Assembly (NCBI GenBank): GCA_023664685.1
Contig: JAMPFC010000005.1
Location: forward strand, 1-52,423
Reading direction: 5' to 3'
DNA length: 52,423 nt
Source of the DNA: Roseburia sp.
GTDB taxonomy: Bacteria; Bacillota; Clostridia; Lachnospirales; Lachnospiraceae
Part shown: positions 1,517 to 23,981 of the stretch, in pieces
Layout of the letters: the number at the start of each line of letters is the position of its first letter
How positions within the stretch are numbered: the first letter of the stretch is position 1
Made by a program: the position numbers and the translations under genes
Notes under the pieces: generated by a model
Database searches by the model: none
The model's input: the letters and a program-made list of their open reading frames with translations, nothing else
What the model was told of the DNA's origin: nothing

Positions 1517-2680
1517 TCATTCCTTAAAAAAATGAACGATCCGGTATCCTTTCAACACTTGGCCAAATTCCTCGGTGGCCTCCATCATGCAGATGTAAAA
1601 GTCTTCGTCCGCCCCTACAAAAAGATCCAAAATTTCAGAATCCGCCTGCTCCACCTCGCTCATATCTGTCCGCTCTGTCAGCCACTCCACTTCGTCGGAA
1701 TTTTGGTAGCCTGCTGCCCGGTACAGCCCGCTCTTATTGCACAAATATACCTGCCACGTATCCGAATTTACATAAAAACTCCACTCTTTTCCTAAGACAG
1801 AATCATCCAATTCAGAGCCAAATGTGTTTTGTTCTTCCAGTTCGGGAAAACTAAGCACCTGAAACCGCTTTTTTTCATTGGAATAGAAAATGATCTCGCT
1901 TTCACCAAATGCAAATTTTCTCTTTCCTGTCACCACATTTCCGACCTCATCGATGACTTGGCCGGTCTCACCGTCGACCAGATAACCATATCCGCCACCG
2001 CTGTCCGTACTCAATATAAAGATGCTGCCATCTTCAAAAATGTGATAATCCCCCAACCAGTCTACAGCCGGCTCCCACTCGTATCCAATGGCATTCAGCG
2101 CCGCCGGCCCGATTTCAAGCGGAACCTCAAAAATATGATCGTTTTCTTCATCAATTTCCAAAATCGAGTACTTTTGCCGGATCATATCGGTATCCTCGCC
2201 CTCAACCACTTTGGTCTCCTTCATATAATAAGTAAATACCGCATACAGGCTTCCATTATCACCCCGGCGGAAGTTTTCCACCTTGCACCGCTGCCATTCC
2301 AACTGCTCATATTTCTGGTTCAAAAACTCACTGAGCGAATTTTCACACAACTCTTCGGAAAGCCAGTTTCCCTCTTCATCCAGACTCCATCGTGAAATCG
2401 TCGCAACATACTCCTCAGCCTCAAAGGAAAAATTGCTATAATAAATCCCCGGCTTCTCCTCAAGATCTGCCACAAAGCCACTGAACGTATTGCCAATATA
2501 GTCACTTCCATCGCTGTTATCAAGTATAAGGGGGTCTGGCAGAGGCATTTCCTTCACCTGATATGGCTCTACCGTTTCCTTCATCTGCAGATCTTTTTCA
2601 CCCTCCCCCTCTGTCTCCTGTTTTCCACAGGCTGACAACACAAGGACACAGATCAGCATGATACTTACCAGTCTCTTCAT
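1517..2680 (-). CDS. Lipoprotein of unknown function
   Basis: A signal peptide ends in the lipobox LSAC (Cys at about residue 18), so the protein should be lipid-anchored on the outer face of the membrane. An acidic linker (ETEGEGEKD) follows, then about 350 residues with no domain that I recognise. The composition is rich in acidic and aromatic residues with many short beta-like stretches, as in a beta-propeller or DUF-type exoprotein, but that is only an impression. The AGGAGG at 2691-2696 is 10 bases from the ATG at 2680 and 7 bases from a TTG at 2683; either could start it. It lies 23 bases after tex and is probably read through from it. Confidence 0.8.
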   Translation of the reverse strand: MKRLVSIMLICVLVLSACGKQETEGEGEKDLQMKETVEPYQVKEMPLPDPLILDNSDGSDYIGNTFSGFVADLEEKPGIYYSNFSFEAEEYVATISRWSLDEEGNWLSEELCENSLSEFLNQKYEQLEWQRCKVENFRRGDNGSLYAVFTYYMKETKVVEGEDTDMIRQKYSILEIDEENDHIFEVPLEIGPAALNAIGYEWEPAVDWLGDYHIFEDGSIFILSTDSGGGYGYLVDGETGQVIDEVGNVVTGKRKFAFGESEIIFYSNEKKRFQVLSFPELEEQNTFGSELDDSVLGKEWSFYVNSDTWQVYLCNKSGLYRAAGYQNSDEVEWLTERTDMSEVEQADSEILDLFVGADEDFYICMMEATEEFGQVLKGYRIVHFFKE

Positions 2681-2703
2681 CAACGCAAAACCTCCTAAAA
2701 TAA

Positions 2704-4845
2704 TTACAGAATCATTGATAACTGAATCCGTTTTTTCTGCAGATCGACAGAAAGTACCTTTACCTCTACCACATCTCCCACGCTCACTACCTCTAGCGGA
2801 TGCTTCACAAATTTCTTATCCGTTAGTTTGGAAATATGTACCAGTCCGTCCTGATGAACACCAATATCTACAAATGCTCCAAAATCGATCACATTTCTTA
2901 CGGTGCCTTTTAAGATCATTCCCTCCGAGAGATCCTTCATCTCCAACACATCCGTCCGAAGCACTGGCTTTGGCATCTCTTCTCTCGGATCTCTTCCCGG
3001 TTTTTCAAGCTCCTTTATGATATCGCCCAATGTAAGTTCTCCCACGCCAAGCTTTTCTGCGATTTTCCGCCGGTCTTTTGCCAAAAGGGAAAGCCCGGTG
3101 ACGCCGCCCTTTATATCAGACGTCCCAAAACCAAGCATCTGCAAAAGTTCCCCCGCCGCCTCATAGGATTCCGGATGGACACTCGTGCCGTCAAGAGGAT
3201 TATCCCCATCGCTGATGCGCATAAACCCGGCACACTGTTCATATGCTTTCGGGCCAAGCTTCGCCACCTTAAGTAATTGTTTTCGGTTTGTAAATCTTCC
3301 GTTTTCCTCCCGGTACGAAACGATATTTTTTGCGATTGGTTTTGAAATTCCGGAAATGTATTCCAACAATGACGCAGATGCGGTATTCAGATCCACTCCT
3401 ACGTTATTGACACAATCCTCTACAACTGCTGAGAGCGCTTCACTCAGCTTCTTCTGGTTCATATCGTGCTGATACTGTCCTACCCCGATCGACTTCGGAT
3501 CGATCTTGACCAACTCAGCCAGAGGATCTTGAAGCCTTCTTGCGATGGATACCGCACTTCGCTGTCCCACGTCAAATTTGGGAAATTCCTCCGTAGCCAG
3601 CTTACTCGCTGAATAAACAGAAGCTCCCGCCTCATTTACGATAACATACTGTACCGGCTTATTTAACTCTTTTAACAGCTCAACGATCACCATTTCCGAT
3701 TCCCGGGACGCAGTTCCATTTCCGACTGAGATCAATGTAACATTATATTTACTGATCAGCCCCTTTACGATCCGCTTTGCCTCTTCCACTTTATTCTGCG
3801 GTTCTGTCGGATAGATCACGATCGTATCAAGCACCTTTCCCGTCTCATCCACGACTGCCAGTTTACATCCTGTCCGAAATGCCGGATCCCAGCCGAGTAC
3901 GACCTGACCAGTGATCGGAGGCTGCATCAATAACTGCGTCAGATTTTTTCCAAATACTTTGATTGCCCCATCTTCTGCCTTTTCCGTCAGTTCATTCCGT
4001 ATCTCCCGCTCGATCGAAGGTGCGATCAGCCTCTTATAGCTGTCTTGGATCGTCTCTCTCAGGCATTCATTTGTATTTGGATTATCCCTTGTAATAATCT
4101 TCTTTTCCAGATATCTCTGGATGCGCTCCTCCGGCGCCTCGATCTTTACCGTGAGAAACTTTTCCTTCTCCCCCCTGTTGATCGCAAGGATCCGGTATCC
4201 GGCGATTTTTTTCACCGCCTCCTCAAATTCATAATAATTTTCATATACGGACTTTTCCTTTTCATCCTTTGCCGCCGATACAAGCACTCCCTCATCCAGT
4301 GTCAGTTTACGGATATAAAAACGATAATCTGCCTCATCAGCCACCGATTCCGCGATAATATCCATCGCCCCCTGTATGGCTTCCTCTGCGGTCGTAACCT
4401 CCTTCTCCTCGGAAAGATACTGCTGCGCCTCCTCCTCAAGAGACTTTTCTGTCATCTGGAGAAGGATGATATTGGCAAGCCCCTCCAATCCTTTTTCCTT
4501 GGCGATCGTCGCGCGGGTACGCCGCTTAGGGCGGTAAGGCCGGTACAGATCCTCCACCATCACCTGTGTCTGCGCCGCCAAAATCTGCTCGCGGAGTTCT
4601 TCGGTCAATTTCCCCTGCTCCTCGATACTTGCCAAAACCTGTTCTTTTTTCTCCTCCAGATTCCGAAGATAGGTAAGCCTCTCATTCAGATTCCTCAGCT
4701 GCTCATCATCCAGCGCCCCATGCTGTTCTTTCCGGTATCTGGCGATAAACGGAATCGTATTTCCTTCATCGATCAGATTTACTACCGCCTCAACCTGCCA
4801 GACTTTTATCCCAAGCTCCTCTGCTATTTTCTTATTGATATCCAT
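2704..4845 (-). CDS. tex: Tex family RNA-binding transcription accessory protein
   Basis: Full-length Tex (713 residues, the usual length). The N-terminal helical part contains YRPYRPKRRTRA (about 101-112). A YqgF/RNase H-like domain begins at about 316 (VLGWDPAFRTGCKLAVVDE), helix-hairpin-helix motifs span about 490-545 (LLEYISGISKPIAKNIV), and a C-terminal S1 domain lies at about 640-710 (GTVRNVIDFGAFVDIGVHQD). Tex proteins bind nucleic acid and are linked to transcription and RNA surveillance; the exact role in Firmicutes is unsettled. GGAGGAAAG precedes the ATG. It follows the sensor-GGDEF gene by 52 bases in a minus-strand run that begins at cca. Confidence 0.95.
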   Translation of the reverse strand: MDINKKIAEELGIKVWQVEAVVNLIDEGNTIPFIARYRKEQHGALDDEQLRNLNERLTYLRNLEEKKEQVLASIEEQGKLTEELREQILAAQTQVMVEDLYRPYRPKRRTRATIAKEKGLEGLANIILLQMTEKSLEEEAQQYLSEEKEVTTAEEAIQGAMDIIAESVADEADYRFYIRKLTLDEGVLVSAAKDEKEKSVYENYYEFEEAVKKIAGYRILAINRGEKEKFLTVKIEAPEERIQRYLEKKIITRDNPNTNECLRETIQDSYKRLIAPSIEREIRNELTEKAEDGAIKVFGKNLTQLLMQPPITGQVVLGWDPAFRTGCKLAVVDETGKVLDTIVIYPTEPQNKVEEAKRIVKGLISKYNVTLISVGNGTASRESEMVIVELLKELNKPVQYVIVNEAGASVYSASKLATEEFPKFDVGQRSAVSIARRLQDPLAELVKIDPKSIGVGQYQHDMNQKKLSEALSAVVEDCVNNVGVDLNTASASLLEYISGISKPIAKNIVSYREENGRFTNRKQLLKVAKLGPKAYEQCAGFMRISDGDNPLDGTSVHPESYEAAGELLQMLGFGTSDIKGGVTGLSLLAKDRRKIAEKLGVGELTLGDIIKELEKPGRDPREEMPKPVLRTDVLEMKDLSEGMILKGTVRNVIDFGAFVDIGVHQDGLVHISKLTDKKFVKHPLEVVSVGDVVEVKVLSVDLQKKRIQLSMIL

Positions 4846-9087: not shown

Positions 9088-10806
9088 ATGGCAGACCAAA
9101 AACTTGGAACATCATTGGAACTGGCACTCTCTGTCAGTGAGGCGGAACGGGAACAAAGCCAGACATTGGATGTCGGATACGATCCCGATACAAAACGCTG
9201 GGAGCTCATCATCAAATACTCCGGCGACCTTATTCTTCCAGACTATGTCACCTTTTTTCCGCTTTATGGCGGATATGGCATCATCAGCATTCCAGAGACG
9301 TATATTGATTCCCTCTCTGCACTCCCGCAGATTGAGTATATTGAGAAACCAAAAAATCTGGTTCTCTCTCTCTATGAGGCGCGGACTGCCTCCTGCATCA
9401 CACCGGTACAAAACCCGCCCCGCTCGCTGAGCGGCAAAGGCGTCCTGATCGGGATCGTGGACAGCGGAATCGATATTTTTCACCCAGATTTCCAGAACGA
9501 GGACGGAACAACCAGAATCCGGGAACTCTGGGATCAAACCATCCCGGATGAAACAGACACCGGCTACAACCGGGGGCGGATTTTCACAAGTGAAGAGATC
9601 AACCGAGCCATCGCAGGCAACGACCGTTCCTTTCCGAGCAGGGATCTGTCCGGACACGGAACACATGTAGCCGGGATCGCCGCCGGAAATGGGCGCGCCA
9701 GCCGCGGCCGGCAAAAAGGGGTAGCCCCTGAGAGCGAACTCCTTATCGTTAAGCTTGGAAATGTATTCCCGGAGGGCTTTCCCCGGACGACTGAACTTAT
9801 GCTCGGGATGGATTATTGTGTAAAAAAGTCCATCGAGTGGCAGATGCCGCTAGCCTTAAACATCAGCTTTGGCAACAGCTATGGCAGCCACGACGGAACC
9901 TCTCTTCTCGAGACTTACATCGATAACCTGTCAAATATTGGAAGAACAACAATTGCGATCGGCAGCGGAAACGAAGGGAACAAAGGCCGCCACACTTCCG
10001 GCAAGCTCTCCGACTCCAGAACATCCCAGATCGAACTTGCTATTTCCGAGGGCGAAACCTCCCTCAACTTACAGATTTGGAAAAATTATGTGGATTCTTT
10101 CCAGATACGCCTTGTAGCCCCCTCCGGGGCATACGTTATCCTTACCGGCTACTCCTCCGGAACGCACGAAGATGTTCTTGACTCCACCCGCCTCCTGTGG
10201 TATTTTGGCACCCCCTCTCCCTACAGTGTATCACAGGAGATTTACCTTGAAATGATTCCGGCAACAGGAAATTCCTACATACAGAGCGGAATCTGGAAAA
10301 TACAACTGACTCCGGAAGCCATCGTGGACGGAACTTATCAGATGTGGCTTCCTTCCGGAAACTCGATCAACCCCGCCACCAGCTTTCTCGTCCCTACGGT
10401 ATCCACGACCCTCACGATTCCCTCCACTGCCGCAAACCCGATCACCGTGGCTGCCTACAACAGCGACACCGATGGATTTGCTCCCTTCTCGGGACAGGGG
10501 TATACCGGTCTTTCCCTTCCAAAGCCTGACATTGCAGCTCCCGGCGTAGATATACTCAGTACTGCCCCGGGCGGCGGTTACACAAACAATACCGGCACCT
10601 CTATGGCAACTCCCTTTGTGACCGGAAGTGCCGCTCTTCTTATGGAATACGGAATCGTCCAAAACCGCGATCCCTATCTGTATGGCCAGAAAGTCAAAGC
10701 TTATCTGCAAAGGGGGGCAAGACATCTCCCCGCCGAAAAAAATTACCCCAGCCCGGTAATTGGCTGGGGTGTACTCTGCCTCAGAGACAGTTTCCCTAAT
10801 ATTTAA
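9088..10806 (+). CDS. Csp-like subtilisin family serine protease
   Basis: S8 family peptidase, about 572 residues, with a complete triad: Asp in GIVDSGIDIFHPDF (about D125), His in LSGHGTHVAGI (H190) and Ser in GTSMATPF (S505). There is a short N-terminal prodomain-like region, no signal peptide, and a beta-rich insert of about 130 residues between the oxyanion region (SGNEGN) and Ser; this is the layout of clostridial Csp germination proteases, which cleave and activate the cortex hydrolase SleC. The ATG at 9088 follows AGGAG (9076-9080) by 7 bases; an earlier ATG at 9070 has no such site. Starting 14 bases after sigK, it should share its transcript. The assignment to spores rests on this context and architecture. 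Confidence 0.85.
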   Translation: MADQKLGTSLELALSVSEAEREQSQTLDVGYDPDTKRWELIIKYSGDLILPDYVTFFPLYGGYGIISIPETYIDSLSALPQIEYIEKPKNLVLSLYEARTASCITPVQNPPRSLSGKGVLIGIVDSGIDIFHPDFQNEDGTTRIRELWDQTIPDETDTGYNRGRIFTSEEINRAIAGNDRSFPSRDLSGHGTHVAGIAAGNGRASRGRQKGVAPESELLIVKLGNVFPEGFPRTTELMLGMDYCVKKSIEWQMPLALNISFGNSYGSHDGTSLLETYIDNLSNIGRTTIAIGSGNEGNKGRHTSGKLSDSRTSQIELAISEGETSLNLQIWKNYVDSFQIRLVAPSGAYVILTGYSSGTHEDVLDSTRLLWYFGTPSPYSVSQEIYLEMIPATGNSYIQSGIWKIQLTPEAIVDGTYQMWLPSGNSINPATSFLVPTVSTTLTIPSTAANPITVAAYNSDTDGFAPFSGQGYTGLSLPKPDIAAPGVDILSTAPGGGYTNNTGTSMATPFVTGSAALLMEYGIVQNRDPYLYGQKVKAYLQRGARHLPAEKNYPSPVIGWGVLCLRDSFPNI

Positions 10807-10880
10807 TTTCGCTCTGCATAATGATTCCCTTTCGCTAGGCGGCGCTGATCTAAACCCTGTTTCATCCCTGCGTCGCCATG

Positions 10881-12698
10881 CTATATTTCTGGAACCGGAT
10901 CGATGATCATTTCCTCCAAAAATGTTTCTCGGTCAAGGAACGGCGCCAGATCCTCCAACGGAGGAGATACCAATGTCCCATCCTCCAGTCGCTTTGTCGC
11001 TGACTTTGGTTCAAAATTTTGATCGGTAGAAACGATGATCTCGCAGATTACAGCTCCCTCCGTCGCAAATACATTGCTTATCGTCTCTGTCAGTGTGTCA
11101 TTGCTCTCACAACGGAAAAACGGATAATCATATGCATATGCAATCTTCTCAAGATCCGGAAATTCCAAATCGTGGCTCTGCGGGCCGATTCCGACATAAG
11201 GCTCGCCAAAAAAGTTTGTCTGTGTCTGACGGATCGAGTGATACCCGTTATTGTTGATGACAAAAATCTTGATCGGGAGTTTATTCGTCTGGATCGTCTG
11301 CAGCTCTTGAAGATTCATCTGGATACTTCCGTCGCCGCTTAAACATACCAGTTCCCTGCCGCCTTCCGCCACGCATGCCCCGATCGCCGCCGGCAGGTCG
11401 TATCCCATCGATGCGATCGCGGAATTGATAATAAATCTCTGGTCTTTTTTGATCTCATATCCATGACTTCCTACCACACATGCCGAGCCATTCCCTACTA
11501 CTGTCACATAGCCTTCCGGCAAAACTCGGCTTACCTCTTTGATAAAGGCATATACATTTGCCAGTCCCTTCTGCTCATAATGCTTGGGAAGAACGACCGG
11601 ATATGTCTCTTTCCAGTGCGCACATTTCTCAAGCCAGAACGAATCCGTATCAAGTTTTGTATCCCCTAATGCCTCATTCATCATTTTCATCAGTTCTTTT
11701 ACATCTGCACACACAGGCATGTCCACATGGATCGTCGGTTTTTTCAACTCCTCGGCATCCACATCTACCACGATCGTATAAGCCTCTCTCGCCCATGTCT
11801 TAAAATTATACCCGACCTGCCGGATGCTCAACCGGCTTCCAAGCGAAAGCACCAGATCGCTGTTCTGGATCGCAAAATTCCCGGCCCGGTCACCCATAAT
11901 ACCGCCCCGGCCTACATACAAAGGATGCTTGTCCTCGATCAGATCAATGCTGTTCCAACCTGTCACAACCGGAATGTTGAGTTTTTCAACCAACTCACAA
12001 AATTCCGGATAACCACCCGAGATCCGGATTCCGTTTCCCGCATTGATGACTGGTCTCTTTGCCTCCTTGATCTTTCGTAATATTTTTTCAATCGTCGCTT
12101 TGGATGGCTTTACTGGTTTTTCGTCAATACATTCCGTCGGATCAAAAGAGCGGAGTTCTTCTGTCTCGATAAATGCGCCCTGCACATTCAGCGGAATATC
12201 TAACCAACACGGCCCCGGGCGTCCTGTCTGGGCCAGATACAATGCCTTTTCCAGACAATATTTAATATCTGTGGGATTGATAACCATTTCACAGTATTTC
12301 GTCATACTGTCCACTGCCTTACATATATCAAATTCCTGATCTCCCATCGCACGGATCCCAAGTCCGGTACTTCTGGCTGTCGTGTCATAACGAACCTGTC
12401 CGGAGAGAACAAGCATCGGAATCGAATCCAGCCATCCGCCTACTACCCCGGTGATCGCATTGGTTCCACCCGGCCCTGTCGTCACACAGACCGCCCCAAT
12501 TTTATTGTGCATGCGCGCATATGCTTCTCCGGCGATCGCACACGCCTGCTCATGATGCTGATACACACAATGAAGCCCCTCCTGATGCCCCAGACCATCA
12601 TTCAGATGCATCGCACCGCCGCCTGTCACGGTAAATACCGTATCGATTCCATGCTCCACCAAAAATCCTGCCACATAATTCGATAATTTTATTTTCAT
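10881..12698 (-). CDS. Acetolactate synthase-like thiamine-diphosphate enzyme (orphan)
   Basis: 605 residues with the three-domain layout of the acetohydroxyacid synthase/pyruvate oxidase family. The catalytic Glu is at about 50 (YQHHEQACAIAGEAYAR), and the diphosphate-binding GDGS (about 455-458) is followed by INNNG (482). It is not in an ilv operon, no small regulatory subunit is nearby, and the sequence looks unlike canonical IlvB, so the substrate is uncertain: similar enzymes occur in nucleotide-sugar and polyketide-like pathways. CAGGAG precedes the ATG. A cre-like palindrome (TGTAAACGTTACTA, 12758-12771) lies upstream and hints at catabolite control. A TTGACA lies inside the upstream direct repeat, but no good -10 is spaced to it. 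Confidence 0.85.
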   Translation of the reverse strand: MKIKLSNYVAGFLVEHGIDTVFTVTGGGAMHLNDGLGHQEGLHCVYQHHEQACAIAGEAYARMHNKIGAVCVTTGPGGTNAITGVVGGWLDSIPMLVLSGQVRYDTTARSTGLGIRAMGDQEFDICKAVDSMTKYCEMVINPTDIKYCLEKALYLAQTGRPGPCWLDIPLNVQGAFIETEELRSFDPTECIDEKPVKPSKATIEKILRKIKEAKRPVINAGNGIRISGGYPEFCELVEKLNIPVVTGWNSIDLIEDKHPLYVGRGGIMGDRAGNFAIQNSDLVLSLGSRLSIRQVGYNFKTWAREAYTIVVDVDAEELKKPTIHVDMPVCADVKELMKMMNEALGDTKLDTDSFWLEKCAHWKETYPVVLPKHYEQKGLANVYAFIKEVSRVLPEGYVTVVGNGSACVVGSHGYEIKKDQRFIINSAIASMGYDLPAAIGACVAEGGRELVCLSGDGSIQMNLQELQTIQTNKLPIKIFVINNNGYHSIRQTQTNFFGEPYVGIGPQSHDLEFPDLEKIAYAYDYPFFRCESNDTLTETISNVFATEGAVICEIIVSTDQNFEPKSATKRLEDGTLVSPPLEDLAPFLDRETFLEEMIIDPVPEI

Positions 12699-16035: not shown

Positions 16036-16557
16036 TTGAAGCAAAACACTTTAGTTGAAATCATAGAGGAACAAACAAACCGTGCCTTATGGGAAACAAA
16101 AAATGTAATAGATTGTGTCCCAGATGAATTATGGGATAAAAAATATTGCGAAATGCCTTGTTGGAAGCACATCTATCACATGTTACACTCATTGGATCTG
16201 TGGTATATTAATCCCCGGGATAAAAATTTTCAGGAGCCCGCAATCCATGAAAAAGATTTAAATAATCTGGATGTTTTTTCTAACAAAACTCTTTCTCGGG
16301 AGGAAATCGAACGCTATTTGATCTGCATTGAGAAAAAAATCAAAACATATATTTCTGGCTTAACAGATGAGCAATTATTGGAATATCCGGCAGACTGTGA
16401 ATATTGTAAATTCACCCTGATCTTAGCACAGTTTAGACATCTGCACAGCCATATGGGAATGATTATGGGATTTATTATAGATGATACCGGTTTGTGGCCC
16501 AAAGTTTTGGGGTTGGAAAATCCATTTCCGAGGGGAAAGTATGATAAGTATTTGTAG
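16036..16557 (+). CDS. DinB-like four-helix protein
   Basis: 173 residues, mostly helical, with the DinB/YfiT-type spacing of histidines: KHIYHMLHSLD (about 48-58) and a later RHLHSHMGM. Such proteins bind a divalent metal; some are thiol transferases, but most are uncharacterised. Translation starts at a TTG at 16036, chosen because GGGAGGA (16022-16028) lies 7 bases upstream and no ATG fits. It is 52 bases downstream of the NUDIX gene on the same strand. Confidence 0.8.
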   Translation: MKQNTLVEIIEEQTNRALWETKNVIDCVPDELWDKKYCEMPCWKHIYHMLHSLDLWYINPRDKNFQEPAIHEKDLNNLDVFSNKTLSREEIERYLICIEKKIKTYISGLTDEQLLEYPADCEYCKFTLILAQFRHLHSHMGMIMGFIIDDTGLWPKVLGLENPFPRGKYDKYL

Positions 16558-16567
16558 ATATCGCACT

Positions 16568-16903
16568 TTATTCCATCGTTTTTATCAACCCCTGAATCCG
16601 ACGCTCTGCCTCTTTATAAACTGCCTCATCATCCCTTACTGAAATGATGATAATCTTCATAACACTGCCCTCACAAACCAAATCATACACCACCCGGTAT
16701 CCAAGACTACGAAGCTTTATTTTATAAAATCCACTCAATCTAGATGAAGCAAGATTTCCTAATGGCTTTCCTATCCCGTCTGGCGGAGGCAGGGGATGTT
16801 CTGCTATCTTTTCAATGGCTTTCAAAACCAGTTTCCGCACATATGGGTCTAACTTCCGCAAGTCCCGCTGTGCTTCTTTAATATATTCCACTGTCCATTT
16901 CAT
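16568..16903 (-). CDS. relE: RelE/ParE family toxin
   Basis: 111 residues with the RelE/ParE fold signature: VEYIKEAQRDLRKLDPYVRK at the N-terminus, then GFYKIKLRSLGYRVVYD and a terminal strand VMKIIIISVRDDEAVY. RelE toxins cleave mRNA in the ribosomal A site, while ParE toxins poison gyrase; the YRVVYDL stretch looks RelE-like. CAGGAG precedes the ATG. It is the second gene after the Phd/YefM antitoxin, 19 bases downstream, the usual antitoxin-first order. Confidence 0.9.
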   Translation of the reverse strand: MKWTVEYIKEAQRDLRKLDPYVRKLVLKAIEKIAEHPLPPPDGIGKPLGNLASSRLSGFYKIKLRSLGYRVVYDLVCEGSVMKIIIISVRDDEAVYKEAERRIQGLIKTME

Positions 16904-16922
16904 AAACCGTACTCCTGTACTT

Positions 16923-17249
16923 CTATTCCAATTCCACGTCTACCTCATCCAATTCGCTCTGGCTAATACCAAACTCCTGCATCATCTGCTCCTGCGTCCG
17001 ATTCTCAGATCCATCATAATGTTTCATGCGCTCTTCTGCCTCTTCCTTTAGAATGAAATCAGAAAGCATTTCCATCAACGACTCATACTGTGTTGGTGAA
17101 ATCAGTACACAGGCGGGCTTGTTGTTTTTTACCACAATTTTAGTCCCTGTCGTCTCCACCTCATCAAAAATTTTGTTTGCCTCCCCCCTATTAAATCGGG
17201 AAATGGGAATCATTGTTTTTAGCATCCCTGCTACAGACATCTGCCGCAT
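16923..17249 (-). CDS. Phd/YefM family antitoxin
   Basis: About 108 residues. The N-terminal half is a Phd/YefM DNA-binding antitoxin domain (IPISRFNRGEANKIFDEV, then VVKNNKPACVLISPTQYESL). The acidic C-terminal tail (EEAEERMKHYDGSE, ending ELDEVDVELE) should wrap the RelE toxin. The start is the ATG at 17249 because GGAGGGG stands just before it; a TTG 15 bases upstream is less likely. A consensus promoter lies at 17295-17323, and such operons are normally autorepressed by the complex. Confidence 0.88.
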   Translation of the reverse strand: MRQMSVAGMLKTMIPISRFNRGEANKIFDEVETTGTKIVVKNNKPACVLISPTQYESLMEMLSDFILKEEAEERMKHYDGSENRTQEQMMQEFGISQSELDEVDVELE

Positions 17250-17294
17250 TCCTAACCCCTCCAATCTACCAATAGTCTATCCTGTTCTGTATTT

Positions 17295-17767: not shown

Positions 17768-17816
17768 CATTATTAGAGATTAACTATATATATCATATAT
17801 GATGGAGGGAAAAGAA

Positions 17817-18842
17817 ATGTCAAAAAAAGTTGTAACATTCGGGGAGATTATGCTGCGTCTTGCACCGGAAGGATACTATCGTTTTGTACAGGCAGAGTCC
17901 TATGGGGCTACTTACGGAGGCGGTGAAGCAAATGTAGCAGTTTCACTTGCTAATTATGGAATGGATGCCAGTTTTGTCACAAAACTTCCGGCTCATGAGA
18001 TCGGACAAGCAGGGATCAACGCCCTTCGCCGATATGGCGTAGATACAAAGGATATCGCCAGAGGAGGCGACCGCGTCGGTATTTATTATCTGGAAAAAGG
18101 AGCGAGCCAGAGACCATCCAAAGTCATTTATGACCGCGCCGGTTCTTCCATCGCCACCGCTACTACGAAAGATTTTGACTGGAACCGTATTTTTGACGAT
18201 GCTGACTGGTTCCATTTTACAGGGATCACGCCGGCTCTTGGCGATAACGTAGCTGCCATCTGTCTGGAGGCATGCAAAGCAGCCAAAGAAAAAGGAATTA
18301 CCGTAAGCTGCGATCTGAACTATCGGAACAAATTATGGACAAAAGAAAAAGCCGGTCAGGTCATGGGCGAGCTTTGCAAATATGTTGACGTATGCATTTC
18401 CAATGAAGAGGACGCCAATGATGTATTCGGGATCAAGGCTGCCGGAACCGACGTCACCGCCGGTCAGGTAAACCACGAAGGTTACAAAGACGTTGCCAAA
18501 CAGTTAGCCGACCGTTTTGGTTTCAGCAAAGTAGCCATCACACTCCGTACCTCCATCTCAGCAAACGACAATAAATGGGCGGCTATGCTCTACGATGGAA
18601 ACGACTATTATTTCTCAAAGCAGTACCTCATGCACATTGTCGACCGCGTCGGGGGCGGCGATTCTTTCGGCGGCGGGCTCATCTATTCCTGCCTGCAGGA
18701 CATGGCACCACAGGACATTATCGAATTTGCTGTCGCTGCAAGCTGCCTCAAACACAGCATCGAGGGCGACTTCAATCAAGTATCCGTCGATGAAGTAATG
18801 AAACTTGCCGGCGGCGATGCATCCGGACGGGTACAGCGATAA
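17817..18842 (+). CDS. kdgK: PfkB family sugar kinase, probably 2-keto-3-deoxygluconate kinase
   Basis: 341 residues. PfkB/ribokinase fold with the N-terminal VVTFGEIMLRLAPEGYYRF, the glycine motif YGGGEANVAVSLA and the catalytic C-terminal motif DRVGGGDSFGGGL (Asp at about 282). The wording of these motifs matches 2-dehydro-3-deoxygluconokinase of the Entner-Doudoroff/pectin route, although other PfkB sugars are possible because no kdgA or uronate genes are adjacent. The ATG at 17817 has GGAGGG 7 bases upstream. Its last 22 codons and following terminator recur at 21817-21993 with only synonymous changes in the codons, so this gene end marks a recombination boundary. Confidence 0.85.
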   Translation: MSKKVVTFGEIMLRLAPEGYYRFVQAESYGATYGGGEANVAVSLANYGMDASFVTKLPAHEIGQAGINALRRYGVDTKDIARGGDRVGIYYLEKGASQRPSKVIYDRAGSSIATATTKDFDWNRIFDDADWFHFTGITPALGDNVAAICLEACKAAKEKGITVSCDLNYRNKLWTKEKAGQVMGELCKYVDVCISNEEDANDVFGIKAAGTDVTAGQVNHEGYKDVAKQLADRFGFSKVAITLRTSISANDNKWAAMLYDGNDYYFSKQYLMHIVDRVGGGDSFGGGLIYSCLQDMAPQDIIEFAVAASCLKHSIEGDFNQVSVDEVMKLAGGDASGRVQR

Positions 18843-18960
18843 ATCTTCAAAATATTCTGTATTAGCTAGCGATACTGATAAAATCACGAAAATAAAATAC
18901 TGGATAATAGAGTAGAAAAAGAGAATGTTTCAATTTCATTTTATTGAAGCATTCTCTTTA
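18773..18960 (+). repeat. kdgK-tail repeat, copy 1 (in the intact gene)
   Basis: Last 22 codons of kdgK plus about 115 bases of 3' flank with the terminator. It aligns along its length with 21816-21993. Between the copies the coding part differs at seven third-codon positions and nowhere else, while the flank differs by scattered substitutions. Confidence 0.85.
18921..18956 (+). terminator. kdgK terminator
   Basis: Stem GAGAATGTTTCAAT (18921-18934) pairs with ATTGAAGCATTCTC (18943-18956), 14 bp with one G-T wobble, then TTTATTAAG. It can also stop the convergent XRE gene. Confidence 0.8.
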
Positions 18961-18979
18961 TTAAGTATGCAAATACAAT

Positions 18980-19315
18980 TTATTCATAATATTTATCTAA
19001 CGATATCTTGGTTGATCTTATTACATCAATGATCACGTTTAATTGCTTGACAGAACAAGAATCAATCAATTCCAATAATTCCTGTTGAATCGTAGTTTTA
19101 TTTATCTGTGGATGTTCATATATGATTGCATCTGTCTGCACGGAAAGAACATCCGCAATCCTTACCAGAGCCGATAAACTCATCTTCGTATTCCCTGTCT
19201 CAATATGGCTCATATGAGTTACAGAAATCCCCGCTTTTTCTGCTAGCTGCTCTTGGGAAAGGTTCAAAGCCTTTCGGTATCTCCGGATCCGTTGCCCGAT
19301 TTCATAATAATTCAT
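18980..19315 (-). CDS. XRE family transcriptional regulator
   Basis: 111 residues. The N-terminal Cro/CI helix-turn-helix (IGQRIRRYRKALNLSQEQLA, then GISVTHMSHIETGNTKMSLS) fills residues 5-60; the C-terminal half (EHPQINKTTIQQELLELIDS) is a helical dimer or effector part without catalytic motifs. It is divergent from the LRR exoprotein gene across a 125-base region carrying three copies of a CCTATA-type motif, so it probably controls that gene and itself. It lies inside the islet bounded by the kdgK-tail repeats, and its terminator region is shared with kdgK. Confidence 0.9.
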   Translation of the reverse strand: MNYYEIGQRIRRYRKALNLSQEQLAEKAGISVTHMSHIETGNTKMSLSALVRIADVLSVQTDAIIYEHPQINKTTIQQELLELIDSCSVKQLNVIIDVIRSTKISLDKYYE

Positions 19316-19326
19316 TCACATCACCG

Positions 19327-19412
19327 CCTATATAATTAAAATATACTTGAATTGTATAGGCATTTATGTTATATTTGAATATATTGTATGGGCTAAAATA
19401 TGCCTATATAGT
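19327..19412. promoter_or_regulatory. Divergent XRE/LRR control region with repeated operator motif
   Basis: CCTATATAATT (19327-19337), its near-inverse AATTGTATAGG (19350-19360) and a third copy CCTATATAGTT (19403-19413) lie between the two divergent genes. A plausible promoter for the LRR gene is TTGTAT (19385-19390), 16 bases, TATAGT (19407-19412); its -10 is overlaid by the third copy. This is the layout expected for repression by the adjacent XRE protein, but binding is an inference. Confidence 0.5.
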
Positions 19413-19440
19413 TCAATTATATAATAAAGGAGAACTAATT

Positions 19441-21801
19441 ATGACATCAAAAAAACAAATAATTACATGTTTGCTGACTTTCGCCCTGTTGCTTGGCATG
19501 TTTCCTAGCACCGAGGCATTCGCCGCAAAAAAAGTAAGCCTAAACACTAAGAATCTAACTATCACAGAGGGAAAAAGCAAGACACTCAAAGTCAAAAACA
19601 CAAAGAAAAAAGCAACATGGAAAATCTTATCTGGTAAAAAATATATTACCTTAAAGAAAAAAGGCAGAGTGGCTGCAACAATCAAGGGAAAGAAAAAAGG
19701 GACTGCAAAAGTGCAGGCAACTGTACAAAAGAAAAAGCTGACCTGCAAAATAACGATAAAAAGTTCCAAAAAGAAAACACATAAATCAATCTCCCCAACA
19801 TTCCTACCAACACCATCTGAAGTAACCGCCACTCCTGTTTCTACAAACACGCCTACACTCATTGGTTCACATGAACATGATGTGGCAACATTAAAAAAAT
19901 TAATTGCAGAACAACAAGAACGGGGAGCACGCGTTAGTACAGATATAAACAATCGAGACTATACATGGGAAGATGGTAAACTAGTGGGAATTGATTGGTC
20001 TTATCAGGGCTTAACAGGTGAACTAGATGTGTCAGAACTCGTTAATTTAACAAAGTTAGAGTGCTATTACAATGAACTAAGCAGCTTGAACGTATCTGGA
20101 AATGTAAATTTAACAGTTTTGGACTGTGATTCGACCACATTAACCAACTTAGATGTATCCCAAAATATAAATTTAACAGACTTGAACTGTAGCAGTAACC
20201 GATTAACCAACTTAGATATATCCCATAACGTAAATTTAACAGACTTGAATTGTATGGATAACCAACTAACAAACTTAGATATATCCAAAAATATAAATTT
20301 GACATACTTAAATTGTGGACTTAACCAACTAAACAACTTAGATGTGTCGAAAAATATAGGCTTGGAAGATTTATATTGCTACGGAAACCAATTAACAAAT
20401 ATAGACATATCCCAAAATGTAAATTTGACATACTTACATTGTGGGGATAATCAGCTAAATAGCTTAGATGCATCCTATAATGAAAATTTAACACGTTTAG
20501 ACTGCAGATTTAACCAACTAAGCACCCTAAACATATCTTGCAATATAAATTTAACAGACTTGGATTGTGGATTTAACCAACTAAGCACCCTAGACATATC
20601 TTGCAATATAAATTTAACAGACTTGGATTGTGGATTTAACCAACTAAATAGCTTAGATGTATCCAAAAATATAAGTTTGGAAACTTTAGACTGTCAACAT
20701 AATCTGTTAAACAATTTGGATATATCCAAAAATGTGAATCTATACTCATTACATTGTGACCAGAATACATTAAGTAATTTAGATGTATCAAAAAACGTAA
20801 ACCTAAAAGTATTATCCTGTGATGACACCGTTATTATTGTAGGACGACCTACCTCATCAGATACACCAGACAATTTAAACGATCAAGACGTAACTGCTTT
20901 AAAAAACTTGATTCGTTTACAACGAGAACGCGGTGCAACTGTCAGCGAAGATTTAAATAGTGATGAATATACGTGGGAAGAAGGTCGATTGACAGAAATT
21001 TGCTGGATCAATGCAGATTTGTCTGATGAATTGGATATGTCAGAACTTACAAATTTGAAAGTGTTAAATTGTAATAGCAACCAATTAACTAATTTGGATG
21101 TATCTGAGAATGTAAATTTGATAGACTTAGCTTGCGGTAACAACCAATTAACAAATTTAGATGTATCCAAAAATGTGAATCTAACAGTGCTAGATTGTAA
21201 CGAAAACCAATTAACCAACTTAGATGTGTCCAAAAATGTGAATTTGACAATGTTATTCTGCAGTTATAATCAATTAAATGAATTAAATTTATCCAAAAAT
21301 TTGAATTTGGCAACCTTATTCTGTGATTATAATCAGCTTAAAAATCTAGATATATCAAAAAATGTGAATTTGACAGATTTTGCATGCTCTAATAACCAAT
21401 TAACTAATTTAGATGTGTCCAAAAATACAGACTTGACGATATTAGAATGCAATGATAATCAATTAAATAATTTAAATGTATCAGGGAATATAAATATGAC
21501 AGAGTTACAGTGCCAAAAAAACCAACTAACAAGTTTAGATGTATCTAAAAATGTAAATTTAGAGTACTTAGAGTGCAGTAACAACCAACTAACTAATTTA
21601 GATGTATCTAAGAATGGGAGTTTATGCAGCTTATATTGCGGCAACAACCGATTAACTAATTTAGATGTATCTAAGAATGTGAATTTATTCTTCTTATCAT
21701 GCAAGGGTAATCAACTAAGTACCCTAGATGTGTCCCAAAACACAAACTTGTATGGTTTAAGCTGTGATGATACCGTTATTGTCAAAGGTTATAATAAATA
21801 A
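19441..21801 (+). CDS. Secreted cysteine-rich leucine-rich-repeat protein
   Basis: 786 residues. A signal peptide (MTSKKQIITCLLTFALLLGM, cleavage near AFAA) is followed by a lysine-rich Ig-like (Big_2-type) domain at about 28-120. Then come two modules, each opening with a related helical cap (ATLKKLIAEQQERGA / TALKNLIRLQRERGA, each followed by YTWE) and an LRR array of 21-residue units, consensus LxxLxCxxNQLTNLDVSKNV: 13 units, then 12, each array closing with CDDTVI. All 25 units carry a Cys at one fixed position. No LPXTG, SLH or other anchor is visible, so it is probably released or held by the basic Ig domain. AAAGGAG precedes the ATG. It is much more AT-rich than kdgK. LRRs of this kind bind proteins or glycans; the target is unknown. 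Confidence 0.9.
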   Translation: MTSKKQIITCLLTFALLLGMFPSTEAFAAKKVSLNTKNLTITEGKSKTLKVKNTKKKATWKILSGKKYITLKKKGRVAATIKGKKKGTAKVQATVQKKKLTCKITIKSSKKKTHKSISPTFLPTPSEVTATPVSTNTPTLIGSHEHDVATLKKLIAEQQERGARVSTDINNRDYTWEDGKLVGIDWSYQGLTGELDVSELVNLTKLECYYNELSSLNVSGNVNLTVLDCDSTTLTNLDVSQNINLTDLNCSSNRLTNLDISHNVNLTDLNCMDNQLTNLDISKNINLTYLNCGLNQLNNLDVSKNIGLEDLYCYGNQLTNIDISQNVNLTYLHCGDNQLNSLDASYNENLTRLDCRFNQLSTLNISCNINLTDLDCGFNQLSTLDISCNINLTDLDCGFNQLNSLDVSKNISLETLDCQHNLLNNLDISKNVNLYSLHCDQNTLSNLDVSKNVNLKVLSCDDTVIIVGRPTSSDTPDNLNDQDVTALKNLIRLQRERGATVSEDLNSDEYTWEEGRLTEICWINADLSDELDMSELTNLKVLNCNSNQLTNLDVSENVNLIDLACGNNQLTNLDVSKNVNLTVLDCNENQLTNLDVSKNVNLTMLFCSYNQLNELNLSKNLNLATLFCDYNQLKNLDISKNVNLTDFACSNNQLTNLDVSKNTDLTILECNDNQLNNLNVSGNINMTELQCQKNQLTSLDVSKNVNLEYLECSNNQLTNLDVSKNGSLCSLYCGNNRLTNLDVSKNVNLFFLSCKGNQLSTLDVSQNTNLYGLSCDDTVIVKGYNK
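20518..20646 (+). repeat. Near-identical tandem 63-bp units within the LRR array
   Basis: Units 9 and 10 of the first array (about 20518-20583 and 20581-20646) are identical in DNA over 63 bases except for one A/G. The other units share the protein pattern but differ in codons, so this pair is a recent duplication and shows that the array is still changing length. Confidence 0.8.
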
Positions 21802-21815
21802 CCCCTTACACATCA

Positions 21816-21993
21816 CAATCAGGTATCCGTCGACGAGGTGATGAAACTTGCCGGAGGTGATGCATCCGGACGGGTACAGCGGTAAATATTCTAAATATTC
21901 CGTATTCACTAGCGATACTGATAAAATCGCGAAAATCAAATACCGGATAATAGAGTAGAAAAAGAGAATGTTTCAATTTTGGAACATTCCCTT
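21816..21993 (+). repeat. kdgK-tail repeat, copy 2 (detached 3' end)
   Basis: Bases 21817-21885 read as the final codons of kdgK (NQVSVDEVMKLAGGDASGRV, then QR and TAA) with no start and no upstream gene body, followed by a diverged copy of the kdgK flank and terminator (stem near 21966-21989). Against copy 1 there are seven codon differences (CAA/CAG, GAT/GAC, GAA/GAG, GTA/GTG, GGC/GGA, GGC/GGT, CGA/CGG), all silent. It is a gene fragment, not a functional gene. Confidence 0.85.
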
Positions 21994-21994
21994 T
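21964..21994 (+). terminator. Terminator in the detached kdgK tail
   Basis: GAATGTTTCAA (21966-21976) pairs with TTGGAACATTC (21979-21989), one wobble, then CCTTTACTATTTTTG. It would serve the LRR gene. Confidence 0.65.
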
Positions 21995-22023
21995 ACTATT
22001 TTTGCAAGAATTATGATAAAATA

Positions 22024-22203
22024 GTCTCAGCAAAGCTGAGCCATGCAAGTTGCTATCGCAACTTGAAATGCACAGAAAGCATGAGTGCAATCAGCAGATT
22101 ACAGACAAATAGCTGCTTACAGATGATTTTGTCTGTAATCTGCTGATTATGTGAGTGTCAACGAACACCGAAAAACCGTAGGTTTTGAGGTAGGCACTCA
22201 TGC
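22024..22203 (+). ncRNA. Highly structured non-coding stretch, candidate RNA or repeat element
   Basis: Successive hairpins fill 180 bases: CTCAGC/GCTGAG (about 22026-22040), CAAGTTGC/GCAACTTG (22046-22065), an outer GCATGAGTGC/GCACTCATGC (22079-22088 with 22194-22203) enclosing a perfect 21-bp stem (22089-22109 with 22128-22148, 18-base loop), and AAAACC/GGTTTT (near 22173-22186). No reading frame of size runs through it. Part of it recurs near 43345-43386. It may be a structured RNA, the leader of the CPBP gene or a palindromic mobile repeat; a promoter is not clear. Confidence 0.4.
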
Positions 22204-22254
22204 ATAATAGTTATAATATGATTTACCGAAACAGATTCAATGGGGGGTTATGTT

Positions 22255-22908
22255 GTGGAAAAGGAAAAAAACACATTAAGAATCAGTCATGCTATTTTAT
22301 GGGTAGCTGCTTGGTTTGGGATTATGCTTTTTTATACATTTCTAAATGCAGCCATTTGGAGAAAAGCATTTCCAGATTACGCAGAATGGATAAATATTAT
22401 AGTTATCATAATATGTGCGGTTGGATTTATTTGCCTGCTCAAAAGTAAATATGAAATAAATTTATTATCAAATGCCACGCCAATGGGCATTCTTTTGGCT
22501 ATATTTTGTTCCATCCTGTTTTTCTTTCTTTTAGATCAATGTCTGGATCCTATATTTGAAAGTATTTTTCCACAAAGCGAGCAGGACTATCAAGAGATGA
22601 TCCAAAGTCTGGTTAAGTCACCTGTCACAAGCCTATTACAAATATGTATTATTGCCCCCGTCACAGAAGAAATTTTAATGCGTGGATTTGTATTGGGCGA
22701 ATTAAAAGACACCTGCGGAGTTATGCCGGCATTATTTATTTCTGCTTTGCTTTTTGCACTCCTGCACTTTAATATGGTACAAACTTTATCAGCCTTTGTG
22801 TGCGGCATTGTATTAGGATTACTTTATATAAAAACTAACTCCATCCCCTGCTGTATCATTGCACATTGCGGATATAATTTAATATCTTACATCATGCTTT
22901 TTTCTTAG
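22255..22908 (+). CDS. CPBP family intramembrane metalloprotease
   Basis: About 217 residues with six or so membrane segments. The family motifs are present: EEILMRGF (the EExxxR motif, about 140-147), LHFNM for the metal-binding His and a final IAHCGYN. CPBP (Abi) proteins cleave membrane substrates; in Firmicutes they are often linked to bacteriocin self-immunity or protein processing, which cannot be decided here. I favour a GTG start at 22255, 7 bases after a G-rich site (GGGGGG, 22242-22247); the ATG at 22240 would lie upstream of that site. It follows the structured non-coding stretch. Confidence 0.85.
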   Translation: MEKEKNTLRISHAILWVAAWFGIMLFYTFLNAAIWRKAFPDYAEWINIIVIIICAVGFICLLKSKYEINLLSNATPMGILLAIFCSILFFFLLDQCLDPIFESIFPQSEQDYQEMIQSLVKSPVTSLLQICIIAPVTEEILMRGFVLGELKDTCGVMPALFISALLFALLHFNMVQTLSAFVCGIVLGLLYIKTNSIPCCIIAHCGYNLISYIMLFS

Positions 22909-22954
22909 CATCTCAAATCACAAAACGACTTCCCCTCGAATACTCCCCAGAAGC

Positions 22955-23074
22955 AGCAACACGTTCTTTTGGGAGACTTGTGAATCCGTCAGTGTCAGAA
23001 TCATGTACTCTATGATTCGACACTGCTACGTGATTCACCTAGCGCAAGCGGTCTCCCAAAAAGAACGTGTTGCT
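22955..23074. repeat. 120-bp imperfect palindrome, MITE-like or double terminator
   Basis: Arms AGCAACACGTTC...GGGAGAC (22955-22977) and its inverse (23051-23074) match over 23 bases with one extra base. Inside, GTGAATC/GATTCAC and CAGTGTC-GAATCAT/ATGATTC-GACACTG pair further, so nearly the whole segment folds on itself. It fills the gap between the convergent CPBP and deacetylase genes and reaches the deacetylase stop codon. Confidence 0.7.
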
Positions 23075-23876
23075 ACCTCCTCCACTGCTCCGGAAACATA
23101 TACTCCTTCCTCTCCGCAAGTGTCCCAAACGAATACCCCTTTTCAGCGATCAGGTCAATGACCTCGCCGAGTACGGACGCCGTATTCTGCATCGTATTGG
23201 AATCGTGTAAAAGGATGATCGGCTCGTCATATTTTTCAAGATCCTTCGCCACATTCCGGTAAATGACTGCTTTGGGGACACCCCTGCCCACCGAGTCCTC
23301 GCCGGAGACATTCCAGTCAAAACTCGTCACATTTATCTTTTGAAGCTTCTGCACGATATCATCTACGATCGGGCAGACATAGCGGTTATTGCTGCCCCAC
23401 GGAAAGCGATGGAGTTTCGGTGCCGCCCCCGTCACCTCCCGGATCCGGTCGCTGCACCGGTTAAAATCCTCAAAAAACGCAGTTTCATCACAGTACATCT
23501 CATTCTTTTTATGCGAGTATGTATGTACGCCGATACAATGACCCTCCGCCTTCTCACGCCGGACGATCTCCTCACGTTCGCCGGTAATCTCATTTCCGAT
23601 TAGAAAAAAAGTCGCTTTGACATTTTTCTTTTTTAACGTATCCAGTATCTCCGGTGTGACCTCACTAGGCCCATCATCAAATGTCAGATATGCGGTCTTC
23701 TCTGCCTCACCTTTCACTGCCGCTTTACTGGCTGGCGAGCCACTCGCCGCCGGCGCACCCGCTGTCGTCTCCCCGCTTTTACTCTCCTGCATATTTTTAC
23801 AAAATTCCGAAAACATCATTACGCCAAGTAAACATACGCATACAACATAAAGTATCCGTTTCACCTGATCACCCAT
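23073..23876 (-). CDS. Membrane-anchored polysaccharide deacetylase (NodB domain)
   Basis: 267 residues. An N-terminal signal-anchor (RILYVVCVCLLGVMMF) and an Ala/Ser/Gly linker precede a NodB domain with all five motifs: TFDDGPSEVTP (catalytic base and metal Asp), HTYSHKK (metal His pair), RFPWGSNN, FDWNVSGED and IILLHDS. It is probably a peptidoglycan N-acetylglucosamine or exopolysaccharide deacetylase acting outside the membrane, a modification that can give lysozyme resistance. The ATG at 23876 (MGDQVKR) follows AAGGAT; a longer frame upstream lacks a site. It stands alone, downstream of the ABC operon. Confidence 0.9.
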   Translation of the reverse strand: MGDQVKRILYVVCVCLLGVMMFSEFCKNMQESKSGETTAGAPAASGSPASKAAVKGEAEKTAYLTFDDGPSEVTPEILDTLKKKNVKATFFLIGNEITGEREEIVRREKAEGHCIGVHTYSHKKNEMYCDETAFFEDFNRCSDRIREVTGAAPKLHRFPWGSNNRYVCPIVDDIVQKLQKINVTSFDWNVSGEDSVGRGVPKAVIYRNVAKDLEKYDEPIILLHDSNTMQNTASVLGEVIDLIAEKGYSFGTLAERKEYMFPEQWRR

Positions 23877-23946
23877 ACACGTATCCTTAATCTGTATTAT
23901 ATGCTGGAGAATGCAAAATGTTACACCGCACGGAGTTTTGTGCAAA

Positions 23947-23981
23947 TCAAATACCCCGCAGCAGAGCAACGGGGTATTTGA
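23947..23981 (-). terminator. Terminator after the sugar ABC operon
   Basis: TCAAATACCCCG (23947-23958) and CGGGGTATTTGA (23970-23981) form a perfect 12-bp stem with an 11-base loop, downstream of the minus-strand permease gene. Confidence 0.65.

Follow-up and report, generated by a model that had tools for sequence, protein, structure and literature searches.

A silently diverged second kdgK tail beyond an XRE-LRR module in a Roseburia genome: a possible trace of homology-anchored import

Bacterial genomes carry many small accessory modules that have no recombinase of their own, and the route by which they entered is often unknown. The icd gene of Escherichia coli, where prophage e14 resides, is also a site of phage 21, insertion leaving icdC. 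PMC11148124 describes e14 as a prophage that encodes an integrase, intE; it has duplicated 165 bp of icd, for which 12 exchanges and two conservative amino-acid changes are recorded. For the type VI secretion system (T6SS) clusters of Vibrio cholerae, which contain displaced immunity genes and orphan rhs 3' regions, PMC5361080 proposes a route similar to homology-facilitated illegitimate recombination (HFIR). This process, described in PMC5361080 and PMC3240628, combines homology on one side with non-homologous joining on the other (PMC3240628). Here we describe a 52,423-nt stretch of a Roseburia sp. genome (the whole stretch analysed, hereafter the window), in which the 3' end of kdgK, a sugar acid kinase gene, recurs beyond a small module consisting of an XRE-family regulator and a leucine-rich-repeat (LRR) protein.

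The window lies on contig C87 of a 3.0 Mb assembly of 131 contigs with 1.9% contamination (genome G000). Its kdgK is intact (17817-18842, forward strand) and encodes a PfkB-type 2-keto-3-deoxygluconate kinase (PF00294; the open reading frame, ORF, spans 17799-18842, with a likely start at 17817 behind GGAGG). The original prediction that the kdgK 3' end and terminator recur beyond the XRE and LRR genes was confirmed: positions 18773-18936 are repeated directly at 21816-21979 (164 nt, 91% identity, spacing 3043), the second copy being matched at an E-value of 6.5e-61 and only these two places being matched in the genome. The coding part of the repeat comprises the last 21 codons and the stop, at 18777-18842 (tail A, within kdgK) and, on the same strand, at 21820-21885 (tail B, apparently displaced from a kdgK). 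The repeat had been thought to end at 18960 and 21993. A gapped alignment, with an 8-nt gap in copy B, runs farther, through both terminators to about 18973 and 22008, and the left copy therefore ends about 6 nt from the XRE stop. The 3' flank and terminator thus shared by the copies lie at 18843-18973 and 21886-22008 on the forward strand, and both terminators still fold (-21.3 and -16.3 kcal/mol for A and B, respectively). The right copy starts 14 nt after the LRR stop, with the first codon of tail B 18 nt past it. Upstream of codon -22, only four nucleotides (CAAT) are shared before the copies diverge; read inward from its left edge, the repeat opens with CAATCA, one mismatch, and then 11 identical nucleotides (GTATCCGTCGA). 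Leaving aside the 63-nt repeats internal to the LRR gene, this is the sole direct repeat of at least 60 nt found in the window. Tail B shares the LRR reading frame, behind its TAA stop and six codons (21799-21885), as would happen by chance in one case of three.

Codon-by-codon alignment of the two tails bears out the claim that all differences are synonymous: seven nucleotide differences fall in seven codons (CAA/CAG, GAT/GAC, GAA/GAG, GTA/GTG, GGC/GGA, GGC/GGT, and CGA/CGG), and the 3' flank has eight differences in 93 nt up to the 8-nt gap. If changes fell randomly on coding sequence, the chance that all seven would be silent is 0.9-2.9 x 10^-4. A fairer null, in which A is constrained and B has been free since the duplication, gives 0.002-0.006, as calculated by script with a transition bias of 1-8. 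Decay is put to the test solely by changes in B. The pattern had been called very unlikely for a decaying duplicate; unlikely it is, and overwhelming it is not, since any change in A would be expected to be silent in any case. Comparison with relatives indicates a change in B at codons 12 (7/7 relatives) and 21 (6/7) and a change in A at codons 1 (7/7) and 5 (6/7), with codons 6, 7, and 13 undecided. The tail peptide, QVSVDEVMKLAGGDASGRVQR, is the same in seven related species, although their tails depart from tail A at 11-16 nucleotides, and B differs from A in the same manner as the tails of these relatives do, that is, silently. The second tail, judged from these alignments, most likely diverged as coding sequence, as the original prediction held; we regard the silent-only argument as good, though not overwhelming.

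Eight related kdgK loci were compared, the encoded protein being 94-95% identical in six relatives. In four of the eight (G003, G001, G024, and G004), kdgK is followed directly by a polysaccharide deacetylase gene, with gaps of approximately 90-140 nt. None of the four empty sites has XRE, LRR, or the CPBP gene of the window between the two. At the species level, therefore, the islet is an insertion. In G017, some 945 nt of other sequence separate kdgK from the deacetylase gene, in G021 the contig ends, and in G029 and G014 no deacetylase gene was found within the stretch taken. The empty site anticipated by the original prediction thus exists, although in a different form, since kdgK is followed by CPBP in none of the eight loci. 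Because of this, and because CPBP is missing from the empty sites, these loci do not show which tail is the older.

The comparison set consists of one genome per species, with no strain or sister species of the window's genome among them. In a FastTree analysis of 19 tails (A, B, and 17 other kdgK tails), A and B are sisters with a support of 0.917; they differ from each other at 7/66 positions, and any of the other 17 differs at 11 or more. This grouping is the very outcome that the original prediction had named as refuting it. With one genome per species, the tree has no power to reveal a closer second lineage, and such a lineage, if real, would be closer than any genome examined. Distances of A and B to outgroups are similar (G003, 12 versus 13; G029, 11 versus 13; five others, 14-16 versus 13-15). 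The A-B divergence, at 7/22 third positions, is of between-lineage size when set against that between A and the nearest species, G003 (12 nt in the tail, 160/338 third positions across kdgK). No near-identical tandem pair of kdgK genes, and no second match confined to the tail (E <= 0.001), was found in 60 other genomes. The 3' flank matched in 4 of the 39 genomes of the genus, the window's own included; the other three matches, 29-39 nt long with E-values from 2.7e-4 to 0.008, were read as chance. Neither tail nor flank was found in viral contigs, searched with exact degenerate patterns only, or in plasmids or phages, sets from which records near the window's genome were possibly excluded.

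A second displaced tail occurs in the same genome, on the 279 kb contig C43. Here, 189380-189571 recurs at 190874-191064 with 94.8% identity (9380-9571 and 10874-11064 in locus L188). The repeat consists of the last 39 codons, stop included, and the terminator of an MqsA/YokU-like gene (Pfam score 26.1, against a cut-off of 30), the partner of a DUF4258 gene. Between the copies lie a GNAT-like gene, whose Pfam scores fall below cut-off, and a small RelBE-like region in which a small antitoxin-like ORF is accompanied by an open frame resembling RelE by eye. There is one coding difference, which is silent, and only 6 nt separate the stop of the last cargo frame from the far tail. Both scars, then, show an intact gene with its tail and terminator, a cargo, and a silently diverged tail and terminator near the last cargo stop. 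The upstream gene, ppdK-like by eye, directly precedes the DUF4258-MqsA pair in G005 and the MqsA-like gene alone in G034; in G000, upstream gene and pair are additionally separated by a 252-aa ORF. Both relatives carry the far-copy base at the one coding difference, which fits a far copy that is the older one without proving it. In G034 (contig C28, locus L249, 3958-4268), the lone MqsA-like gene behind the ppdK-like gene is flanked on either side by terminator-like sequence, and a toxin gene was not found between these flanks.

These two cases were what remained of a displaced-tail scan of 797,926 b of G000 (window included, approximately 27% of the genome), which returned seven TAIL rows; the filter for keeping or dropping rows was set after the rows were known. 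Dropped were a row at C43:51877 (11 codons, in a minus-strand 77-aa ORF inside similar neighbouring genes) and four rows on C54, three of 11 codons and one in a 70-aa ORF with nine amino-acid differences. The scan returned no rows in 397,867 b of G017. A further 1,151,280 b from 86 loci, a sample biased to kdgK and XRE neighbourhoods with some stretches doubled, gave seven TAIL rows, all of which were dropped: a repeat within one surface gene (L076), a 72-aa ORF in a 495-nt repeat that could be real (L108), two rows of XRE-like ends in tandem, judged by eye (L109), one row of 11 codons (L143), and two with 10 and 18 amino-acid differences (L161). HEAD rows numbered five in G000 and three elsewhere. 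The head/tail comparison is an unfinished control, with two of the eight HEAD rows accounted for: C43:170154 represents two similar neighbouring gene pairs, and the row in the window is the antisense frame of the kdgK repeat.

Recombinases were sought with two profiles, PF00589 and PF00239. Neither matches anything on contig C87, which agrees, for these two families and with others outside the search, with the original statement that no integrase is seen. The genome as a whole has nine PF00589 and four PF00239 matches, the one nearest to the second case being approximately 49 kb away on C43. A ComEC-type gene (PF03772) is present in G000, as it is in 10 of 14 control genomes. Two different target genes with no integrase nearby lead us to favour a homology-based route over two lost integrases. 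The reading we prefer, tentatively and with slightly less than even confidence, is that homology at the 3' end of kdgK anchored the import of the XRE-LRR module, and that the far junction was illegitimate and stranded the resident tail. The module would have come on DNA of a closely related lineage, in a piece carrying the end of the donor kdgK, its terminator, XRE, and LRR. On the left, this piece would have paired by homology with the resident kdgK; on the right, an illegitimate junction would have linked its non-homologous end, just past the LRR stop, to codon -22 of the resident kdgK. Such an event would keep kdgK whole with a new tail, A, and displace the resident tail and terminator, B, 3 kb downstream, where terminator B may now end the LRR transcript. 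The product fits an HFIR footprint; donor and recipient are unseen, and we infer, rather than observe, that tail A is new, that tail B is the old resident, and that HFIR was the route. The original view of an islet that arrived by recombination and left the old tail behind is upheld as to coding divergence and empty site, and not as to the donor lineage and the identity of the older tail.

Several observations weigh against this import. The two tails group together, and no donor was found among the genomes compared, in which empty sites exist at the species level only. Most of the A-B change lies on the B branch (FastTree branch lengths of 0.10 for B versus 0.013 for A), which leans towards faster change in B, though all of it silent, and the 3' flank differs less (8/93 nt) than the third positions (7/22), unlike a simple two-lineage clock. 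Each far copy begins no more than 14 nt past the last cargo stop, which is neater than random joining. In the second case, no usual start codon is listed for the RelE-looking last frame, and the two copies differ in the terminator but hardly at all in the coding tail, which reverses the pattern of the kdgK case. No long bracketing repeat was found at other XRE modules: 34 of 75 XRE loci were taken, and in the 29 of these with a divergent ORF, tested over 1.5 kb on one side and 2.5 kb on the other, the longest was 31 nt. These modules thus gave no sign that XRE modules in general come with a duplicated tail. Finally, HFIR is infrequent, at 3x10^-10 per recipient in E. coli conjugation according to PMC3240628, and PMC5361080 calls it 'quite rare'.

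A truncated tandem kdgK paralogue would leave the same appearance, and the silent-only divergence would fit it equally well. Two functional genes would have diverged silently, XRE-LRR would have entered between them, and a deletion would have taken the first 320-odd codons of the second. This history also accounts for the tails being closest relatives and for a 3' flank with chance-level hits in the 38 other genomes of the genus, and it requires no donor lineage; it does require duplication, insertion, and deletion, and the 60 other genomes yielded neither a tandem kdgK nor a tail match. We consider it unlikely. Homology-anchored import explains both scars by one process, and the truncated paralogue explains the first case donor-free. 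For a single scar, site-specific integration at the kdgK 3' end, in the style of e14 in icd, with a replacement tail and an integrase since lost or acting in trans, is as good an explanation as import or better: its footprint would be almost the same as that described for e14 (PMC11148124), the 11-nt identical stretch at the left repeat edge could be the core, and the genome does have PF00589 and PF00239 matches. Against it stand the lack of such matches on C87, their distance from the second case, a tail unmatched in viral contigs, plasmids, and phages, and the two lost integrases that two unrelated target genes would need, so that we judge it decidedly unlikely.

A Campbell-type single crossover, in which homologous recombination within the tail integrated a circle bearing XRE-LRR and the 3' end of a kdgK, has the merit of repeating precisely the homologous stretch, directly and in one step, from two copies that were both functional originally, and circularisation followed by a single crossing-over is given in PMC3240628 as one of two fates of linear DNA in E. 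coli. The circle itself, however, would already need the LRR end joined to codon -22 of a kdgK, and the tail was not found in the plasmids and phages searched; such an origin seems very improbable. We place equally little weight on an assembly artefact (contigs of two strains misjoined, one with kdgK-XRE-LRR and one ending in kdgK tail B) or a decaying duplicate with lucky silent changes. The number of contigs and the contamination of the assembly speak for the former, and the excess of change on B for the latter, whose probability by script is 0.002-0.006. The junction, however, shares only CAAT with kdgK, which we take as too short for an assembler overlap, and a second locus of similar design stands on a 279 kb contig.

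As to the cargo, the XRE protein (18980-19315, reverse strand, 111 aa) is of the Cro/C1 type with a helix-turn-helix domain (HTH_31/HTH_3; PF13560 at 54.1 bits and PF01381 at 50.9 bits). The LRR protein (19441-21801, forward strand, in an ORF from 19366 with a likely start at 19441) is secreted-looking, with a hydrophobic N-terminus that by eye suggests a signal sequence; it matches LRR_4 (PF12799, 110 bits) and has two LRR blocks of 63-nt units. Both genes are more AT-rich than kdgK, as predicted (GC of 0.37 and 0.32 for XRE and LRR, against 0.49). XRE homologues at 80-82% identity occur in G024, in G006, and on contig CANSYK010000026.1. That of G024 sits behind a uxuA-looking gene (by eye), and G006 (L077) repeats the divergent layout, with XRE at 1193-1537 on the minus strand and LRR at 1653-3005 on the plus strand. 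Distant XRE relatives are found in 36 of the 39 genus genomes, and LRR-like or N-terminal-domain matches in all 39, so both families are common and close relatives few. Between XRE and LRR lies a divergent promoter region with an inverted repeat (19316-19440). When four modules were aligned, the alignable part ran from the XRE stop through this region. In the window (18980-19440) and in L076, L077, and L093, XRE and promoter are conserved between species and the divergent secreted-looking gene changes. Among ten such neighbours scanned, seven had Pfam matches (LRR_4 twice; LRR_5 with Big_2; DUF6273 with a weak fn3; GDSL lipase with fn3; SH3_3; NPCBM) and three had none. Since the neighbour varies between modules, the XRE gene and promoter are probably a portable control unit with changing surface cargo. 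Acting at the promoter region that the two genes share, the XRE protein probably regulates both itself and LRR.

Beyond terminator B, the 'structured stretch' once proposed as a marker of the empty site (22008-22222) proved to belong to a modular dispersed repeat family, with 31 matches in its own genome, window copy and palindromic self-matches included, and weaker matches in 8 of the 38 other genus genomes. It is therefore uninformative about kdgK and was ruled out as part of the scar. It is followed by a gene for a CPBP/Rce1-like membrane protease (22240-22908, forward strand, PF02517), absent too from the eight related loci examined, and by the deacetylase gene (23073-23969, reverse strand, PF01522), which synteny identifies as the right neighbour of kdgK at empty sites. 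A long inverted repeat (22950-23079), with 24-nt arms 82 nt apart, lies between these two genes. On the other side, kdgK is separated from a nudix gene by an ORF resembling DinB by eye, together with a ParE/Phd toxin-antitoxin pair (16036-17264). The distance between nudix and kdgK is about 120 nt or less in five of the six loci with a nudix match and about 630 nt in G003; with the two genes near each other in relatives, kdgK seems flanked by additions on both sides. An Rfam scan of the window at gathering threshold gave no matches.

In a displaced gene tail, such an event leaves a direct physical mark, together with a measure of donor distance. The occurrence of two such marks in approximately 27% of one genome suggests that homology-anchored imports could be mapped, one genome at a time, by looking systematically for gene tails that are stranded, in frame, and silently diverged. 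It is conceivable, if doubtful, that gene 3' ends and terminators are recurrent docking sites for integrase-free import of small modules in this gut clade. If so, the modules would include regulator-surface protein pairs and toxin-antitoxin pairs, the donor tail would be swapped in each time, and the resident tail would persist downstream as a dated fossil whose silent divergence tells donor distance.

Compared with e14 in icd as described in PMC11148124, the kdgK locus likewise has the 3' end of a metabolic gene (approximately 165 bp) repeated around an insert, with the upstream gene intact and differences that are mostly silent; whereas e14 brings intE, the insert here is some 2.8 kb of XRE-LRR on a contig free of PF00589 and PF00239 matches. 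As in the V. cholerae T6SS clusters of PMC5361080, a new module appears to have entered beside a homologous anchor and left an old 3' piece downstream, although the leftover there is a whole, useful immunity gene and here a 22-codon fragment of a kinase gene with its terminator. The pattern of homology on one side and non-homologous joining on the other is that of HFIR (PMC3240628), a process demonstrated by experiment in a few species and suggested here from one genome. The footprint is known in kind, from e14 in icd and from displaced T6SS immunity genes; its interest lies in the apparent absence of a recombinase and in its recurrence within one genome.

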